Shown here: piece after piece, positions 2,698 to 35,565 of the stretch
Layout: each line of letters starts with the position of its first letter
Position numbering within the stretch: position 1 is the stretch's first letter
Source: Nitrospira sp.
GTDB lineage: Bacteria > Nitrospirota > Nitrospiria > Nitrospirales > Nitrospiraceae
DNA: 64,000 nt
Direction of reading: 5' to 3'
Assembly: GCA_005116955.1 (NCBI GenBank)
Contig: SWDI01000001.1
Location: forward strand, 214,464 to 278,463
Program-made: the position numbers and the translations under genes
Notes under the pieces: model-generated
Told to the model about the DNA's origin: nothing
The model's input: only the letters and a program-made list of their open reading frames with translations
Databases searched by the model: none

Positions 2698-2744
2698 ATC
2701 TGGGAATTAACGCCAGAAGCCTCTCCTTCTGCTACGAGAACAAG

Positions 2745-2981
2745 ATGAATAAAACCACAACAACCAGGTACAACGTGGCCGAACATCTTCGCACCCAAGA
2801 GGAGATGGCGGCATATTTGGAGGCCTGTTTAGAAGAGGCCAATGGCGATGCTGCGTTTATTGCTAAGGTGATGGGGAGATCATGCCAACGCCAGGAAAAC
2901 TCAAGGAGTCCAGCCTCTATAACTCTTCGCTCGAAGCGCGACTTAGCCGGAGGGCTGGCCCACCGTAATGTATTCCCGTGA
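2745..2981 (+). pseudogene. Truncated HigA-type (addiction-module) antitoxin remnant
   Basis: The first ~43 residues (VAEHLRTQEEMAAYLEACLE then EANGDAAFIAKVMG) match the start of the probable addiction-module antidote proteins, which continue into an HTH of the type GLxRESLYKALS. Here the frame is lost after AKVMG. A weak echo of the HTH (KESSLYNSSLEARLS) is readable in another frame at about 2900-2945. No toxin gene adjoins it. I read it as a frameshifted orphan antitoxin. Confidence 0.55.
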
Positions 2982-3041
2982 GGATCCAGTCTCGACCCCA
3001 TCCTATTGGAAGCGTCAGGTTCGCCCAACGGGGCGCACGAA

Positions 3042-4196
3042 TCAGATTAGCCACTCAGGCGATAAAAGTAAGATAATTCCTAGACTAGCCATCACCAAGC
3101 CGCTGGTAAGTTTCAGCCACCGCCCGGCACCTTCTTGCAATTTCCGTCGGCTCAGCGTGACCACCGCGATGGTCACCATGAGGCCGTCGTCAAGAATATA
3201 GGCCAGGTTATATAAGCCGAGGTAACCGTAGTATTGCCAGGCGGGCAACTGCTGCATCGTCAGAATCTGGGTGTAGAGCGCTGGAAATCCAGCCGTACAG
3301 AGTAATTCGATCGTATTCACCAGGCCCGCCAGAACGACGACGCCGGCCAAGGCCCCTGCAAGTTGCTCAGCTTGAAGAATACGGCGGATGCGAGCGTAGA
3401 GCCCAGGCTTCGCGGACTCGGGAATACTCAGCGAAAAGCCTTGCCGCCAGGCAAAGAAATCCTTCACATTGACCGTTCCCATACACAAGGCGATGGCACC
3501 AAGTCCGATCTGTACGGTGCGTGATACACCTACCACAAGAAACATGTTGAGCCATGCCGCCATGAAGGCAAAGTAGACCAGCCCGCTCACGATGACGAAG
3601 GTGCCCGCGATCAGCGCCATCTTCCGTCGATCCTGGAGATTGACCAGCAACGACAGGAGAAAGAGCAGGACCCACATGGCGCAGGGATTGAAGCCGTCCA
3701 GCAGGCCGATGAGAACGGTGAACAGCGGAAGGCCCAGATCGTGGACGTGAAGCCGGCCGAGCCATCGCGTCTCGATGCTCTCAACCGACGGATTCACGGT
3801 AGCACCCAGTGCCTTTCGGTCGAGCTTGGCGCGAATCTCAGCTCCGGTTGTCTCGGATGACTGGAATCCAATGATGAGCTCCGTGCCTACCAGAAACGTG
3901 GGAACGCCGACCGTCGTGATACCTCGCTCCTGCACCAAGGTGATCAGTCGCTCTCGCGCGGTGGGGTCCTCAGCGATGTCGTGGAGGGCAATGTGAAGTG
4001 AGGGCTGTTCCCGTCGAAGTTCGTCGAGAAAGATCTTTGCGGCTTCGCAATGGGGACAGCCCGCTCGCACGAAGACGTCGATGTCTGGCGTCGAGTCTGC
4101 AGCCTGAAGAGTGGTCCCACTCAAGACCAGCAGAATGAAAAGGTAGAGAATGGGTCCCAGACTACATCTCTCACCAGTTGCATGCTGAAAGAACAC
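3042..4196 (-). CDS. Thioredoxin/glutaredoxin-like domain fused to a DsbD/CcdA-type membrane domain
   Basis: 384 residues. An N-terminal export segment is followed by a thioredoxin-like domain with CPHC (about residues 47-50) and VGVPTFLVG, which carries the cis-Pro. Then comes a polytopic domain with about six membrane segments and conserved cysteines in GFNPCAMW and ELLCTAGFPALYT. In DsbD/CcdA proteins such membrane cysteines carry electrons from cytoplasmic thioredoxin to the periplasm. Having the redox domain at the N-terminus makes it a self-contained unit. It starts 9 bp after the cytochrome c at 4206-4565, so it may keep haem-binding cysteines reduced. Confidence 0.8.
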   Translation of the reverse strand: MFFQHATGERCSLGPILYLFILLVLSGTTLQAADSTPDIDVFVRAGCPHCEAAKIFLDELRREQPSLHIALHDIAEDPTARERLITLVQERGITTVGVPTFLVGTELIIGFQSSETTGAEIRAKLDRKALGATVNPSVESIETRWLGRLHVHDLGLPLFTVLIGLLDGFNPCAMWVLLFLLSLLVNLQDRRKMALIAGTFVIVSGLVYFAFMAAWLNMFLVVGVSRTVQIGLGAIALCMGTVNVKDFFAWRQGFSLSIPESAKPGLYARIRRILQAEQLAGALAGVVVLAGLVNTIELLCTAGFPALYTQILTMQQLPAWQYYGYLGLYNLAYILDDGLMVTIAVVTLSRRKLQEGAGRWLKLTSGLVMASLGIILLLSPEWLI

Positions 4197-4205
4197 AACC
4201 TCGTA

Positions 4206-4565
4206 CTAGCTGACGATGTTCTGTGGTGACATGGATCTGATATATGACAACACATCCAACATCTGCTCGTCCGTCAGCTTGCCGCGAAAGCCGTGCATCG
4301 GGCTGAACAACACGCCATTCGAGATGGCCACGAGCAGCTCCCAATCCGTCTTCGAACGACTGGTCTGAGATCGAAAATCGGCTGGTCGGACGATTAAATC
4401 TCGGCTGTCCGGTCCATTCCCCTCCAGTTCGGACCCATGACAACGGAGGCACTGTTGCTCATACACCCCTTGTCCGGCCTTTGGATTCCCACGGATCACT
4501 TGCGCTGAAACCAAGGATGTTGTGGCGAAGAGGAAGATGACGGCGACAGTCAGTATCGGTTTCAT
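4206..4565 (-). CDS. Small c-type cytochrome (one haem)
   Basis: 119 residues from ATG at 4565, with AAAGGAT just upstream. It has a signal peptide (cleavage near VSA-QV) and one CLRCH haem motif at about residue 42. The C-terminal helix is LTDEQMLDVLSYIRSM, and HGFRGKL lies shortly before it. This is the typical cytochrome c6/c553-like layout. A reading frame reaches further upstream to 4829, but that part overlaps the UspA gene and is not coding. It is transcribed with UspA and the DsbD-like gene. Role: periplasmic electron transfer. Confidence 0.82.
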   Translation of the reverse strand: MKPILTVAVIFLFATTSLVSAQVIRGNPKAGQGVYEQQCLRCHGSELEGNGPDSRDLIVRPADFRSQTSRSKTDWELLVAISNGVLFSPMHGFRGKLTDEQMLDVLSYIRSMSPQNIVS

Positions 4566-4576
4566 GTTCGATCCTT

Positions 4577-5434
4577 TCAGCGCAGGACAAGTATCGGACA
4601 GCTTACGTGATGCACAACGGTGTGAGAGACGCTCCCCAAGAGGAAGCGGGACACGCCCTTGCGCCCATGAGAGGTCACGACCACCAAGTCCATATCCTTG
4701 GCCTCCTGTTCGATCACCGCTGCAGGATTGCCTTGAGCGACTTTCGTGCTGACCGTATAGCGCGGGTTCAAGAGCTTGCCGGCGGTCGATTTGACGAGCT
4801 CCTCCGCATAGCGCTCCGCGCCTTCCCACCAGGTACTGGTTCCCAGGGCGTCATAGGGATCGTTCACTCCGATCGGGATAATGGCGTGGACCACACGGAG
4901 TTCTGCCGGATCGGCGAGCGGATGCTCCGTCAACCATTTCACGATTCGATCCGCATCGTTTCGCTCCTCGATGGCGATGAGGACCCGTTGCACTTTCCGC
5001 GCGGCTCCCCTGACGATCAACGTCGGGCAGGAGCCGTGCATGAGCACCCGATGGGATACACTCCCGAGGACAGCCTCGGACAGACGGCTTCGGCCGCGCA
5101 CGCCGACGGCGACAAGGTCGGCGGAAAGGTTTTTGGCGCTGTCGAGGATGAGCTGAGCAGGACTGCCGATTTCGTTCACCTTCCTGATCGACGCCACCTC
5201 TGCCGGGACCATGGCGGCGGCGCGCTCCAGCAGCTGGTGCCCCGAATCGACCATCGCCTTGCGGAAATCATCGTACCCTTGCACGTTGCCCGCTTGGGCC
5301 ACGACTGGATGTTCCAAAATCCCTAAATCGACGCCGTGGACCAGCGTGACATCCGTTGGATGACAAAGCTGGAACGTCTGGGTGATAGCAGCGAAAGACT
5401 GGTCCGACCAATCAACACCGATGATGACTCTCAT
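4577..5434 (-). CDS. Tandem universal stress protein (two UspA domains)
   Basis: 285 residues from ATG 5434 (MRVIIGVDWSD), with GGGAAAGG upstream. There are two Usp domains of about 145 residues. Each has the nucleotide-binding signature Gx2Gx9G(S/T): GVRGRSRLSEAVLGSVS and SHGRKGVSRFLLGSVS, so both probably bind ATP. The end of the gene lies 11 bp before the cytochrome c. A second tandem Usp is encoded at 33232-34077. Known Usp proteins act under starvation, hypoxia or redox stress; the specific role is not visible from sequence. Confidence 0.9.
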   Translation of the reverse strand: MRVIIGVDWSDQSFAAITQTFQLCHPTDVTLVHGVDLGILEHPVVAQAGNVQGYDDFRKAMVDSGHQLLERAAAMVPAEVASIRKVNEIGSPAQLILDSAKNLSADLVAVGVRGRSRLSEAVLGSVSHRVLMHGSCPTLIVRGAARKVQRVLIAIEERNDADRIVKWLTEHPLADPAELRVVHAIIPIGVNDPYDALGTSTWWEGAERYAEELVKSTAGKLLNPRYTVSTKVAQGNPAAVIEQEAKDMDLVVVTSHGRKGVSRFLLGSVSHTVVHHVSCPILVLR

Positions 5435-5458
5435 GTCATGACCTTTCCCATCCACATG

Positions 5459-6004
5459 TCAGAAGAGTGGATGTGGCGCGGTGCCAAACGGAAGCACGCG
5501 CGGTGATTCACCCACATTGCCGCGAATATGCCACGCCCCGTCTTCGAGGACGAGGTAGTGCACTTCTTCATGCCAGCTGTCGATGGGGACATACAGACCG
5601 CTGGTCTTGGACCTGGCCCAGAGATGGCCGGTACAGGTAACCTCCAGCACTGAATTGCGACCCGCTCCAACCTTGGCCATCTTCGTGAAGAGATGGGTGC
5701 TCGCAATCTCCTGATACTCGTCAAAGAGGTCTTTCCAGATCTTCCGGAGATCGTCTTTCTTGAGCCCATGGTAGTTGTACTGGGCGGAGTAGATGGCCAT
5801 GACCTTTTCAAGGTCATGAGATTTAATGGCCTCTTCGGCCTGCTCAAAGGTATCGACAACCGTGTTGACCGTCGCCTTGTCTACCTCAATCACCGACCCG
5901 GACGGCACGACGATTTTTGCCGCTGTTGTGCCGACTCCGACGGCACATGTGATGAGGAAAACCAGTGAGACGACCGCCGAACCAGCCCGACCTCGTACGC
6001 TCAA
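5459..6004 (-). CDS. Exported NTF2/SnoaL-like protein
   Basis: 181 residues with a signal peptide (hydrophobic core LVFLITCAVGVGTTA). The mature part resembles small NTF2-like cone folds: YSAQYNYHGLKKDDLRKIWK, VLEVTCTGHLWA, and DSWHEEVHYLVLEDGAWHIRG before an APHPLF end. It has a clear paralogue at 48383-48964 (AYDYHGLRDNDVRRVW, DSWFREVHYLVKEGDAWRF, the same HPLF end). A ligand or catalytic role cannot be read from sequence. It lies 24 bp upstream of the tandem Usp and probably shares its transcript. Confidence 0.7.
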   Translation of the reverse strand: MSVRGRAGSAVVSLVFLITCAVGVGTTAAKIVVPSGSVIEVDKATVNTVVDTFEQAEEAIKSHDLEKVMAIYSAQYNYHGLKKDDLRKIWKDLFDEYQEIASTHLFTKMAKVGAGRNSVLEVTCTGHLWARSKTSGLYVPIDSWHEEVHYLVLEDGAWHIRGNVGESPRVLPFGTAPHPLF

Positions 6005-6074
6005 GAAAGCCTCCTTTGGGTGTCAATCCCCCCACGTGTCGGTGTCTTTGTTTGTGTCTTCATGCCACCTGCTC

Positions 6075-6767
6075 TTATTGCGACAGGAAGCCCGTGGAGG
6101 AATGTGCCCGTTCCTTCCATTCCAACAGCGACTCTTCCGCCAAGTTCAAATACTCCACCACATCGTGATCGCTGACTTGTGCAAAATCGATATAGTGGTG
6201 ACCCACAGCCAAGAATGGGTCCGGTGTGGCAAGCACTCTAAATTCGTCCACCTGCATGCAAGCCTTCCGAATGGTCTCCATTGGGCCAACCGGAATAGCC
6301 GCGACCAGGCGGCGCGGTTTGAGGTGTCTGATGGACTGGACGGCTGCGAAGAACGTGGAGCCGGTGGCGATCCCATCATCCACGAGAATGACGATGCGGT
6401 CGGTGAGCGTGTGAAGCTGCCGACCTTGGCGGTATAGGTCTTGCCGTCGAGCAATCTCTCGCCGTTGCACCTGAATCAGCTCTTCAATGTCCGTCCGAAA
6501 GCGACTGTATGCTGCCATGGCATCAGGATTCAGATAGACCGTTCCTGTTTCACCCACTGCGCCCAGTGCATACTCGGGATTATCCGGTGCTCCCAGCTTA
6601 CGGGTGATACATACGTCCAGCGGTAGGTGCAGTCCCAGGCTCAGCTGATACCCGACTGCAACCCCACCACGTGGCAGCGCCAAGATCAGAGCTGCCTGAT
6701 CCTCACGATATTGGATCAGGCGCTCCACGAGTCGACGGCCAGCCTCTTCGCGATTCTTGAATGTCAC
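6075..6767 (-). CDS. Phosphoribosyltransferase-family protein
   Basis: 230 residues. The PRPP-binding loop is VILVDDGIATGST (about residues 125-137). An early ALPRGGVAVGYQL segment and DVCITRKLGAPDNPEYALGA match the type I phosphoribosyltransferase proteins found near stress genes; mycobacterial relatives of this subfamily occur in the hypoxia regulon. The hood region is non-canonical, so the nucleobase (if any) is unknown. It sits between a tiny membrane protein gene and the NTF2-like gene on the same strand. Confidence 0.82.
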   Translation of the reverse strand: MTFKNREEAGRRLVERLIQYREDQAALILALPRGGVAVGYQLSLGLHLPLDVCITRKLGAPDNPEYALGAVGETGTVYLNPDAMAAYSRFRTDIEELIQVQRREIARRQDLYRQGRQLHTLTDRIVILVDDGIATGSTFFAAVQSIRHLKPRRLVAAIPVGPMETIRKACMQVDEFRVLATPDPFLAVGHHYIDFAQVSDHDVVEYLNLAEESLLEWKERAHSSTGFLSQ

Positions 6768-6799
6768 GCTCTTCCCTTCCGTCCACTGGACTCACGGGT

Positions 6800-6952
6800 C
6801 TACATCAGGCCGCTTGTCACACTAACGCCGATCAAAAACATCGCCACTAGAATCAGGATGAGTGTGAGAAGGAGGTGGTGGTGCGGCCCGGCCTCTTTCT
6901 GATCCCAATGCATCTCCCAGGGAATTTCGAGGTAGCGAGGATGGCGAAACAT
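6800..6952 (-). CDS. 50-residue single-pass membrane protein
   Basis: ATG at 6952 is preceded by a strong AAGGAGG site. The N-terminus is polar (FRHPRYLEIPWEMHWDQ), then HHH, then one hydrophobic helix (LLLTLILILVAMFLIGVSV). It lies between hsp20 and the phosphoribosyltransferase gene on the same strand, so it is probably co-expressed with the stress block. I do not recognise the family. Confidence 0.6.
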   Translation of the reverse strand: MFRHPRYLEIPWEMHWDQKEAGPHHHLLLTLILILVAMFLIGVSVTSGLM

Positions 6953-6971
6953 GGTGTCCTCCTTATCCCTA

Positions 6972-7445
6972 TCAGCCAACTTTCACCTCAATCGCTTTGG
7001 GCTTGGCCTTCTCCGACTTCCCGAGATGGACCTTCAGTACGCCGTCTTTGTACTCGGCCGTCACCTTGGTGCCATCCGCATCTTCCGGCAACGTAAAGCT
7101 CCGCATAAAACTGCCGTAGGCCCGCTCGACACGGTGATACTTCTTCCCTTTTTCTTCCTTCTCGTATTTCCGCTCGCCCGTGATCGTGAGGACATCGTCA
7201 TTCACATTCAGCTTGATGTCTTCTTTCTTCATCTCCGGGATCTCGGCTTTGATAACGTACTCCTTGTCATCTTCCGAGATATCCACCAACGGCGACCATT
7301 CAGCCACGGTGATCGCCTCCTGCTTATCGCCACCGGAAGGAACCGATGGACGGCCGAAGTAGCTTGACAGTCGTTTCTCCATGTCTTCGAGTTCCTTGAA
7401 CGGATTCCATCGCGTGGTCGGTTCCCATCGTGTTAATGCGCTCAT
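6972..7445 (-). CDS. Small heat-shock protein, Hsp20/alpha-crystallin family
   Basis: 157 residues. The start ATG at 7445 sits 8 bases after AAGGAGG; the ATG at 7451 would be too close to it. The alpha-crystallin domain spans about residues 45-140 (WSPLVDISEDDKEYVIKAEI, GERKYEKEEKGKKYHRVER, FTLPEDADGTKVTAEYKDGV) and ends near the IEVKVG tail. These proteins form oligomers that hold unfolding proteins without ATP. A candidate sigma-54 promoter lies 57-73 bases upstream of the start codon. It is the first gene of the minus-strand stress block. Confidence 0.92.
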   Translation of the reverse strand: MSALTRWEPTTRWNPFKELEDMEKRLSSYFGRPSVPSGGDKQEAITVAEWSPLVDISEDDKEYVIKAEIPEMKKEDIKLNVNDDVLTITGERKYEKEEKGKKYHRVERAYGSFMRSFTLPEDADGTKVTAEYKDGVLKVHLGKSEKAKPKAIEVKVG

Positions 7446-7758
7446 GACCATTGCCTCCTTGTGTGATTGATGAGGGGCTGGATGCCCCGCCACTGAACCA
7501 ATGCATTGACGGTGCCAGGGGGAAAGAGACGAACGTTGGTGCTTCCCTCTAGGAAATGCGGAGAGTTAGATTTCTGTTGGATTGGAGCCTGGCAAGGACA
7601 GCAATGTGAACTGTGGCATTACGGGGCAGTCGCGCACGTGAGGCTGTCGCCTCATTCATCAATGATCGGCGTAGACTAAGGTGCGAAGTGGACGAAGAGA
7701 TCCTTCCAGTGAATCTTATCGTGTAAGTCTGGCTCGTATGAAGTAGGAGGGACCCATC
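7446..7758. other. Divergent intergenic region between hsp20 and a zinc-ribbon gene
   Basis: 313 bp with no convincing gene. It contains the hsp20 promoter candidate and a 25-base motif at 7606-7630 (GTGAACTGT then GCATT and CAGT) that recurs at 24706-24730 upstream of a cytochrome gene. Confidence 0.5.
7502..7518 (-). promoter_or_regulatory. Candidate sigma-54 (-24/-12) promoter for hsp20
   Basis: On the minus strand the sequence CTGGCACCGTCAATGCA has the GG-N10-GC spacing of sigma-54 promoters: TGGCAC at -24, and ATGCA at -12 against consensus TTGCA (one mismatch). It is suitably placed upstream of the hsp20 start codon at 7445. No activator site was confirmed. Confidence 0.4.
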
Positions 7759-7968
7759 ATGATTAAAACAGGCACTGGGAAGAGCGATGTATGGGATGAT
7801 CATTGCCATCGTTGTGGCGGGCTCATGGTTCCCGAACAGGTGTTAGAAATCAGGTCAATGGACTTCCGTTGTGTGAGTTGCGGTGAGCGCATTGATCCCG
7901 TAATTCTTGCCCATCGTGAAAAATATTCCATACGGAATGAAAGCAAAACGCTCATGATAGGTCAGTAG
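7759..7968 (+). CDS. Small zinc-ribbon protein
   Basis: 69 residues. ATG follows AGGAGGG. There are two CxxC knuckles, CHRCGGLM and CVSCGERID, separated by about 22 residues, which is a treble-clef or rubredoxin-like zinc site. A similar protein is encoded at 46095-46301 on the minus strand (CLRCNGLV, CVNCGMVVDDVI). It probably binds Zn and may be a regulator or adaptor; the function is unknown. It lies just upstream of the hydrogenase operon and could be its first gene, but 88 bp separate them. Confidence 0.65.
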   Translation: MIKTGTGKSDVWDDHCHRCGGLMVPEQVLEIRSMDFRCVSCGERIDPVILAHREKYSIRNESKTLMIGQ

Positions 7969-8056
7969 TCCGATTCCTCGTCTTGCGTGACCGGAGAGGA
8001 GCATTTACGATGGCGACAAGAGGGACGCTTTTATAAAGAAAGTGTTGAGTGTGTAA

Positions 8057-9205
8057 ATGACCAGCGGGATGCGCGGCGCCTTACCAACAGCCAGCCTCCA
8101 ACGATTGCTCGATGCTCTCAGTGCAAAGGGATATCGCATGGTCGGACCCATTGTGCGGGATGGGTCGGTCGTGTGGGAGACCGTCCAGTCTGTGTCGGAT
8201 CTGCCGATTGGCTGGCGCGATCAGCAAGAACCGGGACGCTACCGGCTGGAACAGACCGGCTCACCGGAAATCTTCGGTGTCGTCCATGGACCGCAATCGC
8301 TCAAGCCGTTCGTCTTTGCACCACGCGAGCCGCTCTTGCAGATCGAGCGGAGTAAGGACGGATTCGCCACAAGACCAACACTTCCTCAATCGGAAAAGGT
8401 CGCGGTGATCGGCGCTCGTGCCTGTGATCTGGCCGGGCTTGCTACGCAAGACCAGATTTTTCTGAACGGCGCCTACCGAGATCCCTATTACGCAGCACGC
8501 CGTGAAGGACTGTTCCTAGTCGCTGTGAATTGCACCAGAGCGCTGAACACCTGTTTCTGCGCATCCATGGAGACCGGCCCCCGTGCCAAGCATGGTTTCG
8601 ATCTCGCTTTGACGGAGCTAGATGACCAGCTCTTGATCGAAGCGGGTAGTGAGGCAGGACGCGATCTTCTTTCCAACCTCTGCTTGTCTAGGGGTTCAGA
8701 ACAACTGAGTGCTGAGGCAGCAACGCGTGTCGACGCCTGCGCCCAGAGCCAAGTCAGACGGTTGGATCACTCAGACTTGCCGCAGGCTCTCTATGATGCT
8801 CACGAACATCCTCGTTGGGACGAGGTCGCGAGTCGCTGTCTTGCCTGCACCAATTGCACGATGGTGTGTCCAACTTGCTTTTGTCATACGGTCGAGGAGA
8901 CGCCTGACCTCTCCCACCAGCACACTACTCATGCCAGATTGTGGGATTCCTGTTTCACTCAGGAGCACGGGTATATCCACGGCAAGAATATTCGCCCGAC
9001 GATCAAAGATCGGTACCGCATGTGGCTGACGCATAAGCTCGCATCCTGGATCGATCAATTCGGCGCGTCCGGTTGCGTCGGCTGTGGTCGATGTATCACT
9101 TGGTGCCCGGTCGGGATCGATTTGACCGAAGAGTTGCCGGCGTTGCTGACACCAAGCGAACAGCAGTCAACCACCAGCCGTCGGCCAGAGGCGGCCGGCG
9201 GATAG
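8057..9205 (+). CDS. hydB: Group 3b [NiFe] hydrogenase beta subunit (iron-sulfur electron transfer)
   Basis: 382 residues. The C-terminal half carries two ferredoxin-type clusters: CLACTNCTMVCPTCFC (about residues 261-276) and CVGCGRCITWCPVGID (about 340-355). The N-terminal ~200 residues match the sulfite-reductase-A/sulfhydrogenase-beta family (VIGARACDLAGLATQDQIF). In group 3b enzymes this subunit passes electrons between the small subunit clusters and the FAD/NAD(P) subunit. No strong ribosome site precedes 8057; ATG 8069 is an alternative start. It is the first gene of the beta-gamma-delta-alpha order known from archaeal sulfhydrogenases. Confidence 0.9.
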   Translation: MTSGMRGALPTASLQRLLDALSAKGYRMVGPIVRDGSVVWETVQSVSDLPIGWRDQQEPGRYRLEQTGSPEIFGVVHGPQSLKPFVFAPREPLLQIERSKDGFATRPTLPQSEKVAVIGARACDLAGLATQDQIFLNGAYRDPYYAARREGLFLVAVNCTRALNTCFCASMETGPRAKHGFDLALTELDDQLLIEAGSEAGRDLLSNLCLSRGSEQLSAEAATRVDACAQSQVRRLDHSDLPQALYDAHEHPRWDEVASRCLACTNCTMVCPTCFCHTVEETPDLSHQHTTHARLWDSCFTQEHGYIHGKNIRPTIKDRYRMWLTHKLASWIDQFGASGCVGCGRCITWCPVGIDLTEELPALLTPSEQQSTTSRRPEAAGG

Positions 9206-27628: not shown

Positions 27629-28726
27629 ATGACACCCAAAGTCGCAAAAAAAGAGCGTTGGGTGAGGGCACGACTGCTTTCACAGGCACCTCACGCCGAA
27701 GATCGGCAAGGGAAGGCGGTCGAATCGGCACAAGACAATTTCTTTGCCGAAGCCTTCCGCCTAAGCCCTCACCTGATCGGTATTACAGATCTCGAGACAG
27801 GGCTCTGTCTCGAGATCAATGACGCCTGCCTCGCCACATTCGGCTTTCGCCGGGATGAAGTTATCGGAAAGACGACATTGATGTTGGGCATTTGGCCTGA
27901 TCCTCATGATCGGGCCAGGCTCATCGATCGATTGAAATCTGAAGGGTCAGTCCGAAACCTTGAAGTGTCGACGCGGATGAAAGATGGGGAGCTGCGACAG
28001 TTTCTCATCTCGACGGACTTGATCACGCTCAGAGAGAAGCCTTGCCTCCTGACGATCGGCAATGACATTACCGATCGCAAGCGGGTTGAGGAGGTGCTGC
28101 GGCGGACCCATGAAGAGTTGGAACAACGCGTCCAGGAAAGAACGGTCGACCTCGAGCGAACCCATGCAGCGATGCGGGATAGTGAGGCGCGCTTCCGTTT
28201 GTTCATCGAACATGTGCCGGCTGCCATTGCGATGTTTGACCGCAACATGCGTTATTTGGTGGCCAGTCGCCGGTGGATGGAAGACTATCAGCTTACAGGG
28301 GCGATCCTCGGCCGATCGCACTATGACGAGCTTCCGGAGATTTCATCACGATGGAAAGAGATCCATCGTCGCGGACTGGCCGGAGAAATTCTGAGCGCAG
28401 ATGAAGACCAGTTCGTTCGAGATGATGGCTCGATGCAGTGGATAACGTGGGATGTTCGCCCTTGGTATAGCGGCGATGAAGTAGGCGGAATTGTGATTGC
28501 CACGGAGGATGTGACGGCTCGTGTGGAGGCACAGAACGCCTTGCATGAAAAGGAGGGACGGTCCGACCAGGTCATTCGGTTGGCCAACTTCGGAATTTTT
28601 GATCATGACCATCGCACGGGGCAAATGTACTGGTCCCCTGCGATGAGAGAAATCTACGGAGTGGGACCCGATGATCCCGCGTCTTTCGAGGGGGTATGTT
28701 CAGTTACTCCATCCGGAAGACCGTGA
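27629..28726 (+). CDS. Multi-PAS sensor histidine kinase, N-terminal part (frameshifted)
   Basis: About 355 useful residues. PAS domains begin near SPHLIGITDLETGLCLEIND (about 45), HVPAAIAMFDRNMRYLVASR (about 200), and LANFGIFDHDHRTGQMYWSP (about 325). A short coiled coil lies between the first two. After DPASFEG the frame runs into a stop; the sequence continues in the next frame as YVQLLHPEDRE. Removing one G from the GGGGG at about 28690-28694 would join the two parts. The start is uncertain; ATG 27629 fits best. Confidence 0.7.
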   Translation: MTPKVAKKERWVRARLLSQAPHAEDRQGKAVESAQDNFFAEAFRLSPHLIGITDLETGLCLEINDACLATFGFRRDEVIGKTTLMLGIWPDPHDRARLIDRLKSEGSVRNLEVSTRMKDGELRQFLISTDLITLREKPCLLTIGNDITDRKRVEEVLRRTHEELEQRVQERTVDLERTHAAMRDSEARFRLFIEHVPAAIAMFDRNMRYLVASRRWMEDYQLTGAILGRSHYDELPEISSRWKEIHRRGLAGEILSADEDQFVRDDGSMQWITWDVRPWYSGDEVGGIVIATEDVTARVEAQNALHEKEGRSDQVIRLANFGIFDHDHRTGQMYWSPAMREIYGVGPDDPASFEGVCSVTPSGRP

Positions 28727-30008
28727 AACAGTCGTCCTGGCTATCAAGCAGGCCCAAGATCCTGCCGGTGATGATCTCTTCTCGGTGGAACACCGTGTGT
28801 TGCACCGCGATGGGAGTGTCAGGTGGGTGAGTTTTCGATCATGGACGCTATTCGACAACGAGGGGTCTGAGCGCCGCCCTACTCAAACCTTGGGGGCGAT
28901 GATCGATATCACCAAGCGCAAACAGGCCGAGGAAGCGCTGAAAATAAGTGAGCGCCGATTCGCATCCTTTATGGATAATTTGCACGACTTTGCCTGGATC
29001 AAAGATGCTCAGGGACGGTATCTCTACGTCAATCGACTCTTTGAAGAATCCCTCCTCAAAAGATTAGATTGGAAAGAAAAGACTGCTCGTGAGTTGTGGT
29101 CTGAGGAGATCGCCGTACAATATGAGTTGAACGATCGGAAAGTGTGGGAGACCAGGGTCCCTCTGCACACAGTCGAGCCGTTCGTTCAGGATGGGGAGTT
29201 CCGGCACGCGCTTGTGAGCAAGTTTCCCATCGTCGATCACAAAGGAGCGCCGGTGTTGTTGGGAGGTGTCGCCGTCGACATCACCGAACGCAAACAGGCG
29301 GAAGAGGCGCTTCATCGCAACCAGCTGGAATTGCATCAGCAGCAAGTGCAATTGGAAGAACTGACGTCCAAGCTGCTGGCTGCGCAGGAGCATGAGCGGA
29401 AGCGAATCGCCCGTGATCTGCATGACGACGTCAGCCAGCGATTGGCCGCCTTGGTCTTGGAAGTCGCATCCTTGGAACACCACCCGTCTACGGTACCCGG
29501 TGAACTCACTCGAGCGCTGGCGCCACTTCGTGAACAGTTGGAGCAGCTTTCTGACGATGTGCACACGCTCGCGTATCGGCTTCACCCTTCGCTCCTGGAG
29601 CATGCCGGATTGCGCCCGGCGGTCGAAGAGCATGTTCATCAGGTTTCTCGGCGCACGGGCTTGCCCATTCATCTGAAGATTCTTGATGTTCCGGATGCGG
29701 TGCCGCTTGATCAGGCGACCTGTCTCTTCCGCGTTATGCAGGAGAGCGTTCAAAATGTGGTGAAACATGCGCAGGCAACGACCGTGACGGTCCAGCTCCG
29801 AGGGTCATCAAAGGGGGTCGGTCTGTCCGTCATTGATAATGGGAAGGGATTTGACCCACAGGACCTGCGTATTCATCAACAAGGGCTGGGATTGAGCAGT
29901 ATGGAGGAGCGGCTGCGACAACTGCACGGGTTCTTTCGAATCCAATCTCGCTCATCTCACGGCACAAAGGTCTGTGCGTGGGTGCCGTGCAAGGTGGAGG
30001 TCTCATGA
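28671..30008 (+). CDS. Sensor histidine kinase, C-terminal part (PAS + HisKA_3 + ATPase)
   Basis: It begins inside a PAS domain (YVQLLHPEDRETVVLAIKQA), has another PAS (about 100-215, ending VAVDITERKQAEEALHR), then the NarL-system dimerisation motif RKRIARDLHDDVSQRLAAL, with the phospho-His at about residue 250. The ATPase region has VMQESVQNVVKHAQA and VIDNGKGFDPQ plus GLGLSSMEERL. It overlaps its response regulator by 4 bp. With the upstream 5' part it would be a kinase of about 790 residues. Confidence 0.8.
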   Translation: MIPRLSRGYVQLLHPEDRETVVLAIKQAQDPAGDDLFSVEHRVLHRDGSVRWVSFRSWTLFDNEGSERRPTQTLGAMIDITKRKQAEEALKISERRFASFMDNLHDFAWIKDAQGRYLYVNRLFEESLLKRLDWKEKTARELWSEEIAVQYELNDRKVWETRVPLHTVEPFVQDGEFRHALVSKFPIVDHKGAPVLLGGVAVDITERKQAEEALHRNQLELHQQQVQLEELTSKLLAAQEHERKRIARDLHDDVSQRLAALVLEVASLEHHPSTVPGELTRALAPLREQLEQLSDDVHTLAYRLHPSLLEHAGLRPAVEEHVHQVSRRTGLPIHLKILDVPDAVPLDQATCLFRVMQESVQNVVKHAQATTVTVQLRGSSKGVGLSVIDNGKGFDPQDLRIHQQGLGLSSMEERLRQLHGFFRIQSRSSHGTKVCAWVPCKVEVS

Positions 30009-30658
30009 ATCGACCCCGTATTCTGATGGCTGATGATCACGCCATTGTCCTGGCTGGACTTCGGAAACTGGTGGAAGCCGAGGGCGAGGTGGTTGGTATG
30101 GTGGAGGACGGACGAGCCTTAGTGGAAGCGGCGCAGCAGCTTCGTCCCGACATCGTGTTGCTAGACATCTCAATGCCGTTGCTCAACGGACTCGATGCAG
30201 CGCGCCAAATAAGTAAGCTAGTGCCGGAGAGCAAGCTCATCTTCCTCACCATGCATGCTACCCCCACCTATGCGACCGAAGCCTTTAAGGCCGGAGCCTC
30301 CGGCTATCTGATAAAGCGGTCCGCCGCCGTGGAGCTCAAGCAAGCCATCCAGGCGGTGATGCGAGGACAACACTACATGACTCCGCTTATCACGAAAGAT
30401 GTCTTGGCGGCGACACTCCAATCTCCGGATGGCCAGTTCAATAAGCCATTGGTGACCTCTCTTACCCAGCGGCAACGGGAGGTGTTACAGCTTGTTGCCG
30501 AGGGAAAAGGTACCAAGGCCATTGCCTCGATCCTGAACATTTCCGTGAAAACTGTGGAGTTTCACAAGTTTCGCATTATGAGTGAACTCGATCTTCACTC
30601 GACGGCCGAGCTAGTCAAGTACGCGATTGGCGAAGGCCTTGTGAGTGTGTCGTCGTAG
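30005..30658 (+). CDS. NarL/LuxR-type response regulator
   Basis: 217 residues from ATG 30005 (ATGA overlap with the kinase). Receiver domain: ILMADDHAIV, phospho-acceptor Asp in IVLLDISMP (about residue 54), and Lys in GYLIKRS. The C-terminal LuxR HTH is LTQRQREVLQLVAEGKGTKA and IASILNISVKTVEFHKFRIM. It is the DNA-binding partner of the multi-PAS kinase. Possible targets are the surrounding stress genes (inference). Confidence 0.9.
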   Translation: MNRPRILMADDHAIVLAGLRKLVEAEGEVVGMVEDGRALVEAAQQLRPDIVLLDISMPLLNGLDAARQISKLVPESKLIFLTMHATPTYATEAFKAGASGYLIKRSAAVELKQAIQAVMRGQHYMTPLITKDVLAATLQSPDGQFNKPLVTSLTQRQREVLQLVAEGKGTKAIASILNISVKTVEFHKFRIMSELDLHSTAELVKYAIGEGLVSVSS

Positions 30659-30945
30659 TCACGTCCACTGGTCACGCATACTACCCGAAGTACAGTCGTG
30701 TGCTACTACTACAACATCATGAGTTCATCTACTAGCGTTACCATTCAGTACTAGTAATCTCCCTGCATCTTTCTAGTGGGCTTCCTAGTTCACAAGGCCC
30801 GTCATATATCCTTACTATTAGTTAACGAAAGAATTAGTCCGTTTTTGTACGTTGTTGTGTGCGATCCCTATTCATTTGAGCATGTAGGTTCTTCCGTGAC
30901 AGTTAAGAAGTCGTTGTAAGTTTTGGTCTTTGTGTAGAAGGGTGT

Positions 30946-31206
30946 ATGCAAGTTTCAGCAATCATAGAGCGTGTTTATGGTGCCCTAGAGCAGTTTGGTA
31001 CTACTTGTTCAATGGAAGAGGTGGTTGGGCTTTGTCCAGACCTGACCTGGAACCAAGTGTATCTAGCCATTGATTATTTGAGCAAGACCGGAAAAGTCTC
31101 TGTGACCTTAGACCCAGACAGGACGTACACAGTCCGGGTCTATTCATCAGCCACCGAGGCATCTCAATTCTCACCAAAACAAGATCACGTCCACAGTGCT
31201 GCCTAG
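30946..31206 (+). CDS. Small winged-helix-like protein
   Basis: 86 residues preceded by AGAAGGG. IIERVYGALEQFGTTCSMEE, VVGLCPDLTWNQVYLAIDYL and SKTGKVSVTLDPDRTYTV fit a three-helix winged-helix fold with a beta wing. It has no partner gene. It may be a small DNA-binding regulator; not recognised beyond that. Confidence 0.6.
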   Translation: MQVSAIIERVYGALEQFGTTCSMEEVVGLCPDLTWNQVYLAIDYLSKTGKVSVTLDPDRTYTVRVYSSATEASQFSPKQDHVHSAA

Positions 31207-31645
31207 AACCTAGGCGTAGCATACCCCTGCCGCTGGTGGCCCTAGCTTACGGTAATGATCTCCCGTGGAGTATGGGTTCCTAATGAGATAGGCCTAGCGT
31301 ACTGGAGGCTTACAGCAGTCTAGACTTTCTAAGGGCTCCCTGCCTCATGAAGTAGTCCTCGCACTCTGTTCTCAGGGCCATCCGAACCAGATACACTCGA
31401 ACAGATCGAGACTCTGCGCATTGCCAACCTACTTGACAGTCGATTTGGTCGGGAATAAATTCATGCCCCATAAAAATCCCAAAGAGCCATGGGGCCAAGT
31501 TGTTGGCTGACATCACACCTCGTGTCGATGCCATGCTTATCAGCTTTTTCAGGGGAGAAAGGATGTCTGCCGGCCTCAATGTTTTGGGAGGTGTGCTGTG
31601 GAATACCACTTCGTAGCGTGACGGGTCCGGACGAAAGGAGTAACT
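31207..31645. other. Intergenic region before a micro-protein gene
   Basis: 439 bp. A 99-codon minus-strand frame (31310-31609) lacks a ribosome site and a recognisable domain, so I do not call it. The stretch ends with the AAAGGAG site of the 27-residue protein. Confidence 0.4.
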
Positions 31646-31729
31646 ATGGATAGTACCTTCTTAATGTTTGCAGTTGTGATGCTCGTGATCTTCATCGGCG
31701 GTATCATCGTGTACAAAAAGAGCGTATAA
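31646..31729 (+). CDS. 27-residue single-pass membrane micro-protein
   Basis: ATG follows GAAAGGAG by 5 bases. The protein is MDS plus a hydrophobic helix ending IGGIIVYKKSV. A sibling of 26 residues is encoded at 34298-34378 (minus strand) and shares the MD start, the GG in the helix and an identical VYKKS C-terminal motif. Conservation of two copies supports real translation. The function is unknown; it could be a subunit or regulator of a membrane complex. Confidence 0.65.
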   Translation: MDSTFLMFAVVMLVIFIGGIIVYKKSV

Positions 31730-31989
31730 GCAGCGTTCTTCTCCGTCTCGTCATCTTGTGAAGGGGCTCATTGCCGAAGTCCCGTAAGTTGGACGGTTGT
31801 CATTCGTGCTGAGCAAGAATGTAGGTCCACCTTTTTCAGGCCTTATCCTTCTACTCTCTGCAAGGTTCTTCCTATGTCTGAACGCGTACCAAACTCAGAC
31901 AGTATAATCTTGGGCCTTTGTTCAGGGATGGATGAAGAGGCATCAAACCGAATCATGGGTACGAGCAATGGATGATAGGGAGATGTTAG

Positions 31990-32919
31990 CTATTCTCGGA
32001 TGGCCTTGGCTCGCTTTTGCAGATAGGCGTTTCGGACCGCAGCATAGAGGTCGAGCGTCGATTCTTCCACCCCCTGAAACTTTTCCAGATTCAAAGAGCG
32101 TTCGTTGACGACTTCCGTCGCACGTGCGCCAATTGAGATGGCATAGGTAAGGGCTCGCTCATCGATGTCGACCACTGTCGGAATCGAATCGATGTTATGC
32201 ATGGTCGGCAGGATGAGCCAGTAAATCGGATTGAGGGCGATGTCTCCAGCATAGCCTGCAAGATCTCGAACCGTATAGGGTCCCAGAATCGGTATCATGA
32301 GATAGGGACCTGGTGGAACTCCATAAAATCCGAGCGTTTGTCCCGTATCTTCCTCCGGTGTCGTCAGCTTGAAGTAATGCTGGGCCACATCGAAAAATCC
32401 GCCGATCCCGACCGTCGTATTAATGAGAAATCGCCCAACTTCAATCCCAGCTCCTTTGAATTTTCCCTGAAACATATTGTTCAGGAATCGCGGGGTTGCA
32501 CGGCTATTGTAGAAAATATTGCTGACGCCGACCTGGACAATATTCGGCACGATGAAGTTGTAACCCTTGGCGACCGGCTTCAATATCCAGCGATCAAGCT
32601 GCCGGTTGAATTCAAAGAATTTGGTGTTGAGTGGTTCCCACGGATCGTATTCTTCGATCCCTTCTTCACCCGGCTTCGAAAACGGATCGAGTGGCTCTTC
32701 AGAGGACGCGTCGTGGACCTGTGCTTCTGACGGGAGAGCCTTGGGATTCGCATCAGCCAGAAGAACTGGCCGAGCGTTCTGCTCGATGGTGGGGGCGAGT
32801 GAGTTTGTCGAGCCCTTTTGAGTCACGCAACCTGAGAGCACGATCAATAAGACGGCAAGAACGAGTCCATATTCACGTTGCCTGAAGCAGACCGGCCTAC
32901 ACCCAGCTTTTGTCCTCAT
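31990..32919 (-). CDS. mlaA: MlaA (VacJ) outer-membrane lipoprotein
   Basis: 309 residues with lipobox VLSGC after a long basic start. The conserved core is DPWEPLNTKFFEFNRQLDRW, then FLNNMFQGKFKGAGIEVGRF, TTPEEDTGQTLGFYGVPPGP and YLMIPILGP. MlaA removes misplaced phospholipids from the outer membrane. The other Mla genes are not next to it here. Confidence 0.9.
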   Translation of the reverse strand: MRTKAGCRPVCFRQREYGLVLAVLLIVLSGCVTQKGSTNSLAPTIEQNARPVLLADANPKALPSEAQVHDASSEEPLDPFSKPGEEGIEEYDPWEPLNTKFFEFNRQLDRWILKPVAKGYNFIVPNIVQVGVSNIFYNSRATPRFLNNMFQGKFKGAGIEVGRFLINTTVGIGGFFDVAQHYFKLTTPEEDTGQTLGFYGVPPGPYLMIPILGPYTVRDLAGYAGDIALNPIYWLILPTMHNIDSIPTVVDIDERALTYAISIGARATEVVNERSLNLEKFQGVEESTLDLYAAVRNAYLQKRAKAIRE

Positions 32920-33231
32920 TCTTAAGATAACCTCTCGAGTTGAATGAAACGAGCATTGAGCCCAAAGTGCCGCACTCTACCAAAAAAGTTGAGTCACCCG
33001 CCAATCAAATATTTCGGAATTGTTCTTGTGGACCAAGACCTTAGTCTACGATCGCCGAGCATTCGTAGTCGTGGCATCAACGTTGCCTTACCTCCACTCA
33101 TCTATAGGTCAACACAGCCAGACGGGCCTGTATCCACTGTGCTTCAGTATTCTGCTGATGGTGTTTTCGATGAGTGGTTTGCACCATGCGGGGGATCTGG
33201 TGACGTCAGGCTTCGAATAAGGAGGATGCCG
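32920..33231. other. Intergenic region between mlaA and the second tandem Usp
   Basis: 312 bp. The Usp reading frame continues upstream through it without a stop, but without Usp-like sequence or a start with a ribosome site. I see no gene in it. Confidence 0.4.
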
Positions 33232-34077
33232 ATGAAAGCCGTCGTAGGAGTGGATGGGTCGAAGTATTCAGAGTGGGTGTTGGGTTGGCTGGGTAAGATG
33301 CCGTTTCGGGTGGCACCAGGAGTCACAGCAATTCATGCGATGGATCTTCAATCCGTGCGACCGCCGTTCATCGTACAACCGTCCGTCAGTGGGTATGAAC
33401 CGGACGAAGGGGAAGCCATTCATCTCCTAGAGTCTCGAGCCAAGCAGGTAGAAGCAGAGACGAAGCGGCGCTTCGTGAAGCTTGGGCTCAAGGGCTCGGT
33501 GCGCGTCGTGCAGGACAAGATTGCACAAGCCCTCATCGAGCAGGCAGGCCATAAGGGATTGATCGTGGTTGGGAGCCGAGGGCTAGATGCCATCGATCGT
33601 TTGGTGCTGGGGAGCGTCTCGACAACAGTCACGCTCCATGCGTCCTGTCCGGTCTTGATTGTGAAAGAGCCTCCCCAAACCCTTCGGCGGATGCTCGTCG
33701 CGACAGACGGCTCTCCGTCATCCAAGAAAGCGCTCCAGTTCATGACCAAACAGTTCACGGCCAAGCCTGATGCCAAGCCGCTCGTGATTCTGCTGGTCCA
33801 TGTTATGCCGTTTCTGCGCTACACGATGGTGAAGGAGGCGGGGGAGCAATTGCTCGCGCAGGAGGCAGCCAAGCTTGAGAAAGTCGGGTACCGCGTCAGG
33901 CAGTTTCCCTGTGTGGGACCAGCCGCTGAGGAGATCATGAAAGTGGTGAATCGCGAACAGCCGGATCTAATCGTGACAGGGGCCAAAGGGCGAAGTGCAG
34001 TGACGCGCTTTCTCCAGGGCAGCGTCTCGATGAAACTCGCCCAACAGAGTGCCTGTTCCGTTCTCGTTGTCAGATAA
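33232..34077 (+). CDS. Tandem universal stress protein (two UspA domains)
   Basis: 281 residues from ATG 33232, six bases after AAGGAGG; the ATG at 33226 touches the ribosome site. The nucleotide-binding signatures are GSRGLDAIDRLVLGSVS and GAKGRSAVTRFLQGSVS, both complete. It is a paralogue of the double Usp at 4577-5434. It is followed by a strong hairpin. Confidence 0.9.
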   Translation: MKAVVGVDGSKYSEWVLGWLGKMPFRVAPGVTAIHAMDLQSVRPPFIVQPSVSGYEPDEGEAIHLLESRAKQVEAETKRRFVKLGLKGSVRVVQDKIAQALIEQAGHKGLIVVGSRGLDAIDRLVLGSVSTTVTLHASCPVLIVKEPPQTLRRMLVATDGSPSSKKALQFMTKQFTAKPDAKPLVILLVHVMPFLRYTMVKEAGEQLLAQEAAKLEKVGYRVRQFPCVGPAAEEIMKVVNREQPDLIVTGAKGRSAVTRFLQGSVSMKLAQQSACSVLVVR

Positions 34078-34117
34078 GTCGCGAACCCATCAACCTACCG
34101 CACGCACGGAAACAGAA

Positions 34118-34150
34118 CCATCGCTCGCCTCTGAGAGAGGCAAGCGATGG
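34118..34150 (+). terminator. Hairpin after the second tandem Usp gene
   Basis: CCATCGCT-C-GCCTCT, loop GAG, AGAGGC-A-AGCGATGG: a 15-bp stem with one mismatch, 40 bp after the stop. It lacks a long T run, so it may stop transcription weakly or protect the mRNA end. Confidence 0.5.
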
Positions 34151-34297
34151 TATGAATCGGAAGAGGTTCGACGAAAGGAAATGGTCCTTGCCATGAGAAA
34201 TGTCTCTCTCCGCCAGACCGGATCATCTACCGCGCAAGAGTACTTCTCAACAAGATGAGGCCTTCCCTAGGAGGATGCCCAATTCTGGGCCGGCGAC

Positions 34298-34378
34298 CTA
34301 CGCACTCTTTTTGTACACGATCAACCCACCGATGAGGAGTGCACCCATCACCAATGCGAACAGCGTCATCGTATCCAT
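34298..34378 (-). CDS. 26-residue single-pass membrane micro-protein (sibling of 31646-31729)
   Basis: ATG at 34378 is preceded by GAAAGGAG. The helix contains MGALLIGGLIVYKKSA; the end is almost identical to the first copy. The two genes lie 2.6 kb apart in opposite orientation, flanking mlaA and usp. The shared C-terminal VYKKS would be cytoplasmic under the positive-inside rule. Confidence 0.65.
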   Translation of the reverse strand: MDTMTLFALVMGALLIGGLIVYKKSA

Positions 34379-34614
34379 AACGGCTCCTTTCAATTAAGAA
34401 GACTACAAACCTTTACATGTATAGTGGAGCAACTCTTGTGCTTGCATTGATCGAAGACGGCGGTTTCTAAACTCCTGAAAAAGAGGTGTCTACAACACCC
34501 TGTATGTCAAATCTATTCAGTGAGCTGGGGAGAATGTCATCAAGGCTGTCTATTCCCTTAGACAACGAAAGGTGAGGGAAAGATTCAGCGCCTCAAGTGT
34601 GGTAGCTGAAGCGG

Positions 34615-35565
34615 CTAAAACGAGATCAGACGGTCACGTCCATGGGGCATCGACAAGTCTTGGTCTGGGCCGATCGGGACGATACGGGTAGGGTTAATAT
34701 CATCGTGTGTGACGTAGTAGTGGCGTTTGATGTGGTCGACATTGACGGTCTCGGCAATGCCGTCGGTTTGGTAGAGATCTTTCAGATACCCGAACAGGTT
34801 CGGGTAGTCGGCGATTCGTCGGAGATTGCATTTGAAATGTCCGTGGTACACAGTGTCGAACCGAACCAATGTGACAAAAAGCCGCCAGTCGGTTTCCACG
34901 AACTCCGGTCCGAATAAGTATCGGTGACTTGCCAGGCGCACATCGAGTTGATCCAGCGCGGTAAATAATCGCCGTACCGCTCGTTCATAGCCGTGTTGGG
35001 ATGTGGCGAACCCTGCTCGATAGACGCCGTCGTTCACATTCTCGTAGATGAACGTGTTGAGCTCATCGATCTCTTGCCGCAGGCCGTCCGGGTACAAATC
35101 AATCGGGCTTTCAGTGAATCGATTGAACTCACCGTTGAAGATTCTCATCAGATCGTCATCGGAGTTGGTGACGATACGTTTGGTAACGGAGTCCCACAGC
35201 ACGGGCACTGTGATACGTCCGATATAGTTCGAATCCGTGGCTTTATAGGCTTCTCGAAGAAACTGGAATCCATTGATGGTGTCGGGGGAATGTCCTGCGC
35301 CTTCGCGAAATGCCCATCCTCGCTCGTCACGAATAGGATCCACGACGGTCATACCGATCACAGTCTCAAGCTTCTTGAGCTTACGCACAATGATCGTGCG
35401 GTGGGCCCAGGGGCAGGCCCATGAGACGTAGAGATGGTAACGTCTGGCAGCGGCGGGATAGCCCGAACTACCGTCGGCGGTCACCCACCTCCGGAACACA
35501 TCCGGCTGGCGCGTAAACTCACCGGCTGGCGATTGCTCGTCTGGAAATTGGGCTCGAACTTCCAT
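34615..35565 (-). CDS. Glutathionyl-hydroquinone reductase (ECM4/YqjG-type GST)
   Basis: 316 residues, the usual length. The active-site motif is VSWACPWAHRTIIVR (Cys at about residue 50). It also has VPVLWDSVTKRIVTNSDDDL, ENVNDGVYRAGFAT and DWRLFVTLVRFD, all typical of the family. These enzymes reduce glutathionyl-hydroquinones in the cytoplasm. Glutathione use by this organism is an open question. Confidence 0.9.
   Translation of the reverse strand: MEVRAQFPDEQSPAGEFTRQPDVFRRWVTADGSSGYPAAARRYHLYVSWACPWAHRTIIVRKLKKLETVIGMTVVDPIRDERGWAFREGAGHSPDTINGFQFLREAYKATDSNYIGRITVPVLWDSVTKRIVTNSDDDLMRIFNGEFNRFTESPIDLYPDGLRQEIDELNTFIYENVNDGVYRAGFATSQHGYERAVRRLFTALDQLDVRLASHRYLFGPEFVETDWRLFVTLVRFDTVYHGHFKCNLRRIADYPNLFGYLKDLYQTDGIAETVNVDHIKRHYYVTHDDINPTRIVPIGPDQDLSMPHGRDRLISF

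Follow-up and report, generated by a model that had tools for sequence, protein, structure and literature searches.

A clade-restricted family of single-helix membrane micro-proteins with several paralogs per genome in Nitrospira

AcrZ, KdpF, MgtR and CydX, together with phospholamban and sarcolipin in animals, are small single-helix regulators or subunits of membrane proteins. CydX, for instance, is part of the cytochrome bd oxidase (PMC4325964). Type I toxins are small membrane-localised proteins as well (PMC8147318, PMC6563280), and de novo membrane proteins have been described in yeast (PMC7005711). Presented in our work are two genes of a Nitrospira genome, designated A and B, which encode single-helix membrane micro-proteins of 27 and 26 aa. 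The DNA studied is a 64-kb window of Nitrospira sp. (assembly GCA_005116955.1, contig SWDI01000001.1, positions 214,464-278,463 of the forward strand), and the coordinates of A, B and their surroundings refer to that window:

28671..31206, + strand: PAS sensor kinase (HisKA_3), LuxR-type response regulator and 86-aa protein, upstream of A (Pfam; neighbour clusters c7, c6, c8)
31586..31645, + strand: conserved leader / promoter region of A, including the GTGG-N4-CCAC dyad at 31598-31609 (22-locus alignment)
31633..31640, + strand: Shine-Dalgarno GAAAGGAG of A (sequence)
31646..31729, + strand: micro-protein A, 27 aa, MDSTFLMFAVVMLVIFIGGIIVYKKSV (sequence; HMM family member; dN/dS 0.18 over 22 loci of A type)
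31990..32919, - strand: mlaA, convergent with A (Pfam MlaA, E = 5.5e-68)
33232..34077, + strand: universal stress protein gene (usp), convergent with B (Pfam Usp, E = 1e-42)
34117..34151, - strand: 16-bp hairpin between the convergent usp and B (terminator scan)
34298..34378, - strand: micro-protein B, 26 aa, MDTMTLFALVMGALLIGGLIVYKKSA (sequence; HMM family member; dN/dS 0.18 over 27 loci of B type)
34384..34391, - strand: Shine-Dalgarno GAAAGGAG of B (sequence; conserved in B-type loci)
34427..34443, - strand: upstream element AAGCACAAGAGTTGCTC of B, a putative promoter or operator (conserved over 27 B-type loci)
34615..35565, - strand: glutathione S-transferase (GST)-like protein, upstream of B on the same strand (Pfam GST_C_2, E = 4e-15; cluster c1)

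Both frames start with ATG GAT (MD) behind the same Shine-Dalgarno, contain a single hydrophobic stretch with a GG pair (hydropathy over 17 residues of 3.11 and 2.52 for the two) and end in VYKKSV for A and VYKKSA for B, with an identity of 62% between them. A preliminary description of this DNA had reported two sibling frames with these lengths, starts, ribosome sites, GG helix and VYKKS-plus-one ends, lying in opposite orientation around mlaA and usp; the sequence agrees exactly, and the arrangement is confirmed by the Pfam matches to MlaA and Usp. When the whole window was scanned for micro-ORFs (ATG start, GGAG-led, 20-35 codons, hydrophobic helix), A and B were the sole matches, and the same scan of 30 Markov-shuffled windows returned none. 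The sensor kinase / LuxR regulator / 86-aa protein context is kept at many A-type loci (clusters c7, c6, c8), and the GST-like neighbour of B is conserved in 28 loci (cluster c1). The 16-bp hairpin at 34117-34151 could be a shared terminator of the usp and B transcripts. The 86-aa protein (30946-31206, + strand), whose gene follows that of the LuxR-type regulator and precedes A, is not matched by Pfam and looks like a small winged-helix protein; several diverged paralogs of it occur in some genomes bearing the micro-proteins (9 matches in G021), and 5 of the 10 non-bearing genomes searched had no match at E 1e-5.

The pair itself is real, but the genome holds five members and not only the two siblings first reported (C1:246109 and C1:248764, which are the window pair, C4:45842, C1:706873 and C5:863465). 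Further members in this genome were found by a two-row profile, and five were reached after adding a second subfamily. Among same-genus genomes, 63 of 79 gave hits at E <= 1e-3, usually 2-5 per genome, and 134 distinct members were collected from the loci studied. The first 78 members collected all have an ATG start, a length of 25-27 aa and a Shine-Dalgarno core 2-8 nt before the start, and this core is also present in the wider 134-member listing. The core can be written as M[DE]xxxxxFxxVMxxxIxIGGxxVYKK[SG]x. In the second subfamily, encountered in some genomes, the pattern reads MDxNWLxFGxxILGLVxAAxxVYKKGQ, and the C-terminus can be longer by as many as four residues; the family as a whole ranges from 25 to 31 residues. 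Searches of Pfam, NCBIfam, PHROGs and PDB chains gave no usable relative of the micro-proteins, and the weak profile matches (photosystem II protein M, PHROGs and others) were all above usable E-values. A and B thus belong to a real protein family of single-helix membrane micro-proteins with several paralogs per genome.

Synteny study showed that the main contexts of the paralogs are the sensor kinase / LuxR regulator / 86-aa protein with mlaA, usp with GST, an uncharacterised five-gene operon facing a cytochrome c gene, a LuxR-regulator locus and a methyltransferase / proA-like locus. No neighbour common to all paralog types was found among the loci examined. One further paralog is preceded, at L035 (~2744-8075) and loci like it, by a conserved operon in which lipoprotein-like and uncharacterised genes are combined. 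This operon faces the gene of a small cytochrome c, and one of its genes matches a copper-amine-oxidase-like domain (E = 2e-8). Two B-type genes stand in tandem in one genome (L224, 2397-3008), and two A-type copies plus one B were located in another genome at L229 (2717-12525). The closely similar genomes G303 and G345 (L220, L255) have up to eight second-subfamily matches, some with an in-frame TGA, which suggests that these copies are decaying. A very diverged candidate relative, MASILITFVFVVLMLLIVGLISYANSE (L221, 3986-4069), lacks the MD and KK ends and is of doubtful membership; it is located upstream of NfeD-like, flotillin-like and cydA-like genes, ~3.7 kb from the cydA-like one.

Concerning selection, pairwise Nei-Gojobori estimates, pooled and not tree-based, gave a dN/dS of 0.18 for the mlaA-locus (A) type (22 sequences, a group chosen by sequence rules that may have admitted a few copies located elsewhere). 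The 26-aa type next to the GST gene (B26, 27 sequences) likewise reached 0.18, its 27-aa relatives there (B27) 0.21 and two small groups 0.07-0.27, and the nucleotide differences are concentrated on third codon positions. The synonymous divergence of B equals that of its neighbour (0.48 vs 0.48), and that of A is lower than that of mlaA (0.36 vs 0.58), perhaps owing to constraint on the start region. At the level of sequence, these patterns establish A and B as protein-coding genes under purifying selection. Each paralog is a cistron of its own with a strong Shine-Dalgarno. A ratio near 1 and conservation ending with the strain were the two outcomes that the preliminary description had set against its own proposal of a real, undescribed membrane micro-protein family; the subgroup values of 0.07-0.27, the presence in 63/79 genus genomes, the 134 loci and the lack of a match in Pfam, NCBIfam, PHROGs and PDB all bear that proposal out. 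A reader might still suspect that the conserved unit is not a protein, and that the frame is incidental to a leader, a promoter or a small RNA, given that the ~60 nt upstream of A (77-90% majority base over 22 loci) are about as conserved as the frame. Nevertheless, the low dN/dS and the third-position excess speak against this, frame length is kept in paralogs with unrelated leaders, and an Rfam search gave no match; we find the suspicion scarcely credible, and the codon-level evidence already contradicts it.

Even copies that have diverged furthest, such as L087 and L164, keep the leader of A. Its motif is unique in the genome, and a shared regulon through it was therefore rejected. The 150 nt 3' of the A stop are unconserved (39-64% majority base, 22 loci). 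For B, the element AAGCACAAGAGTTGCTC has a single exact match in this genome, and none of its near matches examined there precedes another micro-ORF. Leaders of the A and B types are conserved within each type and differ between them. A sigma-54 promoter was considered for B and rejected: AAGCAC-N5-TTGCTC has a spacing like that of -24/-12 elements, but it lacks the GG, and there was no sign of a shared regulon. Similarly, RNA structure in the A leader is not claimed, as only 2/19 pairs covary in its consensus (stem TTCGTT/AACGAA). The 5' mRNA folds of A and B, the two that were folded singly, are not stronger than shuffles (z = 0.57 for A and -0.66 for B).

These data bear on whether the micro-proteins are type I toxins, i.e., small hydrophobic peptides which act by damaging or occupying the membrane and whose expression an antisense RNA silences. 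Their size, single helix, basic C-terminus, multiple copies and stand-alone genes would fit, and so would the in-frame stops of some distant relatives in G303/G345. However, the leaders of the window pair are not unusually structured and show no sequestered Shine-Dalgarno. The unconserved sequence 3' of A-type genes, with no conserved element downstream, makes an antisense promoter there unlikely, and Rfam gave no family; an antisense RNA may exist all the same. Moreover, the synonymous sites of B are as free as those of its neighbour, orthologs retain their locus and neighbours throughout the clade, and no relative was found in viral contigs. All in all, a toxin is an unlikely identity for these peptides.

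A scan of 84,980 prokaryote species yielded 70 loci with the titles Nitrospira, Nitrospiraceae or Nitrospirae, plus one labelled Nitrosospira. In the phylum outside the genus, there were short or weak matches only (E 0.001-0.1), mostly fragments inside long frames, and these were not accepted. Thus, a phylum-wide family, as implied by the earlier suggestion of searching across Nitrospirota, gave way to one confined to a single Nitrospira branch. A tree was built from the MlaA proteins of 22 micro-protein-bearing loci and of 11 genus genomes devoid of the family, and in 93% of bootstraps a single change split the bearing from the non-bearing sequences. The MlaA proteins of the bearing loci form one clade, making a single origin within Nitrospira likely, and no such micro-ORF was present at mlaA either in the 11 genus genomes lacking the family or in 4 other genera. 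The simplest reading, and a likely one on this tree, is one gain within Nitrospira followed by duplication and vertical inheritance.

The window genome has ammonia monooxygenase and therefore belongs to a comammox Nitrospira. Searching this enzyme as PF02461 in 77 genus genomes, we detected the micro-protein family in 47/48 monooxygenase-positive and 14/29 monooxygenase-negative genomes (47 with both, 14 with the micro-protein only, 1 with the monooxygenase only and 15 with neither); the single genome with the enzyme but not the family is 87% complete. The association is strong when kinship is ignored (Fisher p = 3e-7), but it is confounded by phylogeny because the tree suggests one gain, and relatedness accounts for it equally well as a functional tie does. 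The counts, along with the single helix and its conserved face, would also be in keeping with small subunits, constitutively present in a complex of respiration or ammonia oxidation, comparable to CydX. Against such a role, no locus examined adjoins an amo, nxr or oxidase operon, the 14 monooxygenase-negative carriers would have to be explained, and the occurrence in one genome of several paralogs with different leaders points to a conditional and not a constitutive supply. Small respiratory subunit families of Pfam were not matched either, with no CydX/YbgT, KdpF or CcoQ profile among the Pfam matches up to E 10 for the 64 members searched. Hence, we hold a constitutive subunit to be unlikely.

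Conservation along the helix is periodic at 100 degrees (permutation p = 0.00075, in a column test on 90 distinct core sequences with position weights, where relatedness shrinks the effective sample) and thereby defines one conserved face consisting of F8, V11, M12, L/I15, G18, G19 and V22. On the opposite face, hydrophobic residues replace one another freely. F8 and G19 are invariant in the 134 members, and Y23 and K25 exceed 90% by weight. Since residue 2 is acidic (D/E) and lysines occupy positions 24-25 near the C-terminus, an N-out/C-in topology is predicted from charge only, by the positive-inside rule. Lineage restriction, the single inferred origin and the absence of a micro-ORF beside mlaA in non-bearing genomes would all be expected of recently born, lineage-specific membrane peptides exerting a generic, partner-free effect (e.g., on fluidity or charge). 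Nonetheless, the invariant F8/G19 and the face-specific conservation exceed the needs of a generic hydrophobic helix, and an effect of this sort is very unlikely.

Judging from the helix face and by analogy, we give an even chance to a role as N-out/C-in single-helix accessory subunits or regulators on larger inner-membrane proteins, with paralogs used under different conditions. As such an accessory regulator, the peptide would sit in the inner membrane with its N-terminus out and its C-terminus (YKK) in, and a heptad-like stripe (F8 / V11-M12 / L-I15 / G18-G19 / V22) would pack against a partner helix. The putative partner would most likely be a larger membrane protein encoded elsewhere in the genome, since no neighbour is common to all paralogs. 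Acting in trans, the peptide would stabilise or tune this partner, as AcrZ, KdpF, MgtR and phospholamban do, and paralogs with different leaders would supply it under different conditions. A adjoins the sensor kinase / LuxR regulator pair and B adjoins usp, a signal or stress association seen only in some of the types. The conserved face could also serve self-association, e.g., in a pore. A broader scenario, in which the family arose once in the comammox-containing branch, multiplied into several paralogs under different control and took on the conserved regulation of a membrane complex linked to the energy metabolism or stress response of this branch, is offered tentatively and may well prove wrong.

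Literature on micro-proteins or sORFs in Nitrospira provided nothing relevant in a search covering few subscription journals. A multi-copy family of nearly all examined comammox genomes has probably gone unseen until now, the apparent reason being the shortness of its members, which gene callers easily miss. Its interest lies in the restriction to a comammox-containing branch and in the expansion of paralogs. With its probable single origin and the purifying selection acting on it, the family is well suited as an example of membrane genes specific to one lineage. For functional study, the invariance of F8 and G19 offers clear mutants. The case also shows that a pair of short ORFs can be a reliable lead when, within one window, their ends and ribosome sites match.

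Regarding described systems, the LPXTG cell-wall anchor (TIGR01167 / PF00746) was matched at E 0.02, below the cut-off, and its resemblance is compositional only. As in the anchor segment, a hydrophobic stretch is followed by KK, but the Nitrospira peptides have neither the LPXTG motif nor a cargo domain, and the host is Gram-negative. With the type I toxins (Fst/Ldr, Ibs, TisB, TimP; PMC8147318, PMC7667032) they share a short hydrophobic peptide, a basic end and several copies. They differ in that A and B of the window have no structured or sequestered leader, and in that the family keeps fixed genomic positions under purifying selection across the clade; no sign of an antisense partner was seen in the downstream sequence or in Rfam. 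The likeness to AcrZ, KdpF, MgtR, CydX and phospholamban comprises a length under ~50 residues, one helix with a conserved face and a likely packing on a larger protein. In contrast to AcrZ, KdpF, MgtR and CydX, the Nitrospira family has no sequence match or constant adjacent partner, counts several paralogs and is limited to one Nitrospira branch. It is new as a family but of a familiar general type: it belongs to none of the families tested, and its mode of action would come closest to that of small regulators of membrane proteins, for example AcrZ or KdpF.
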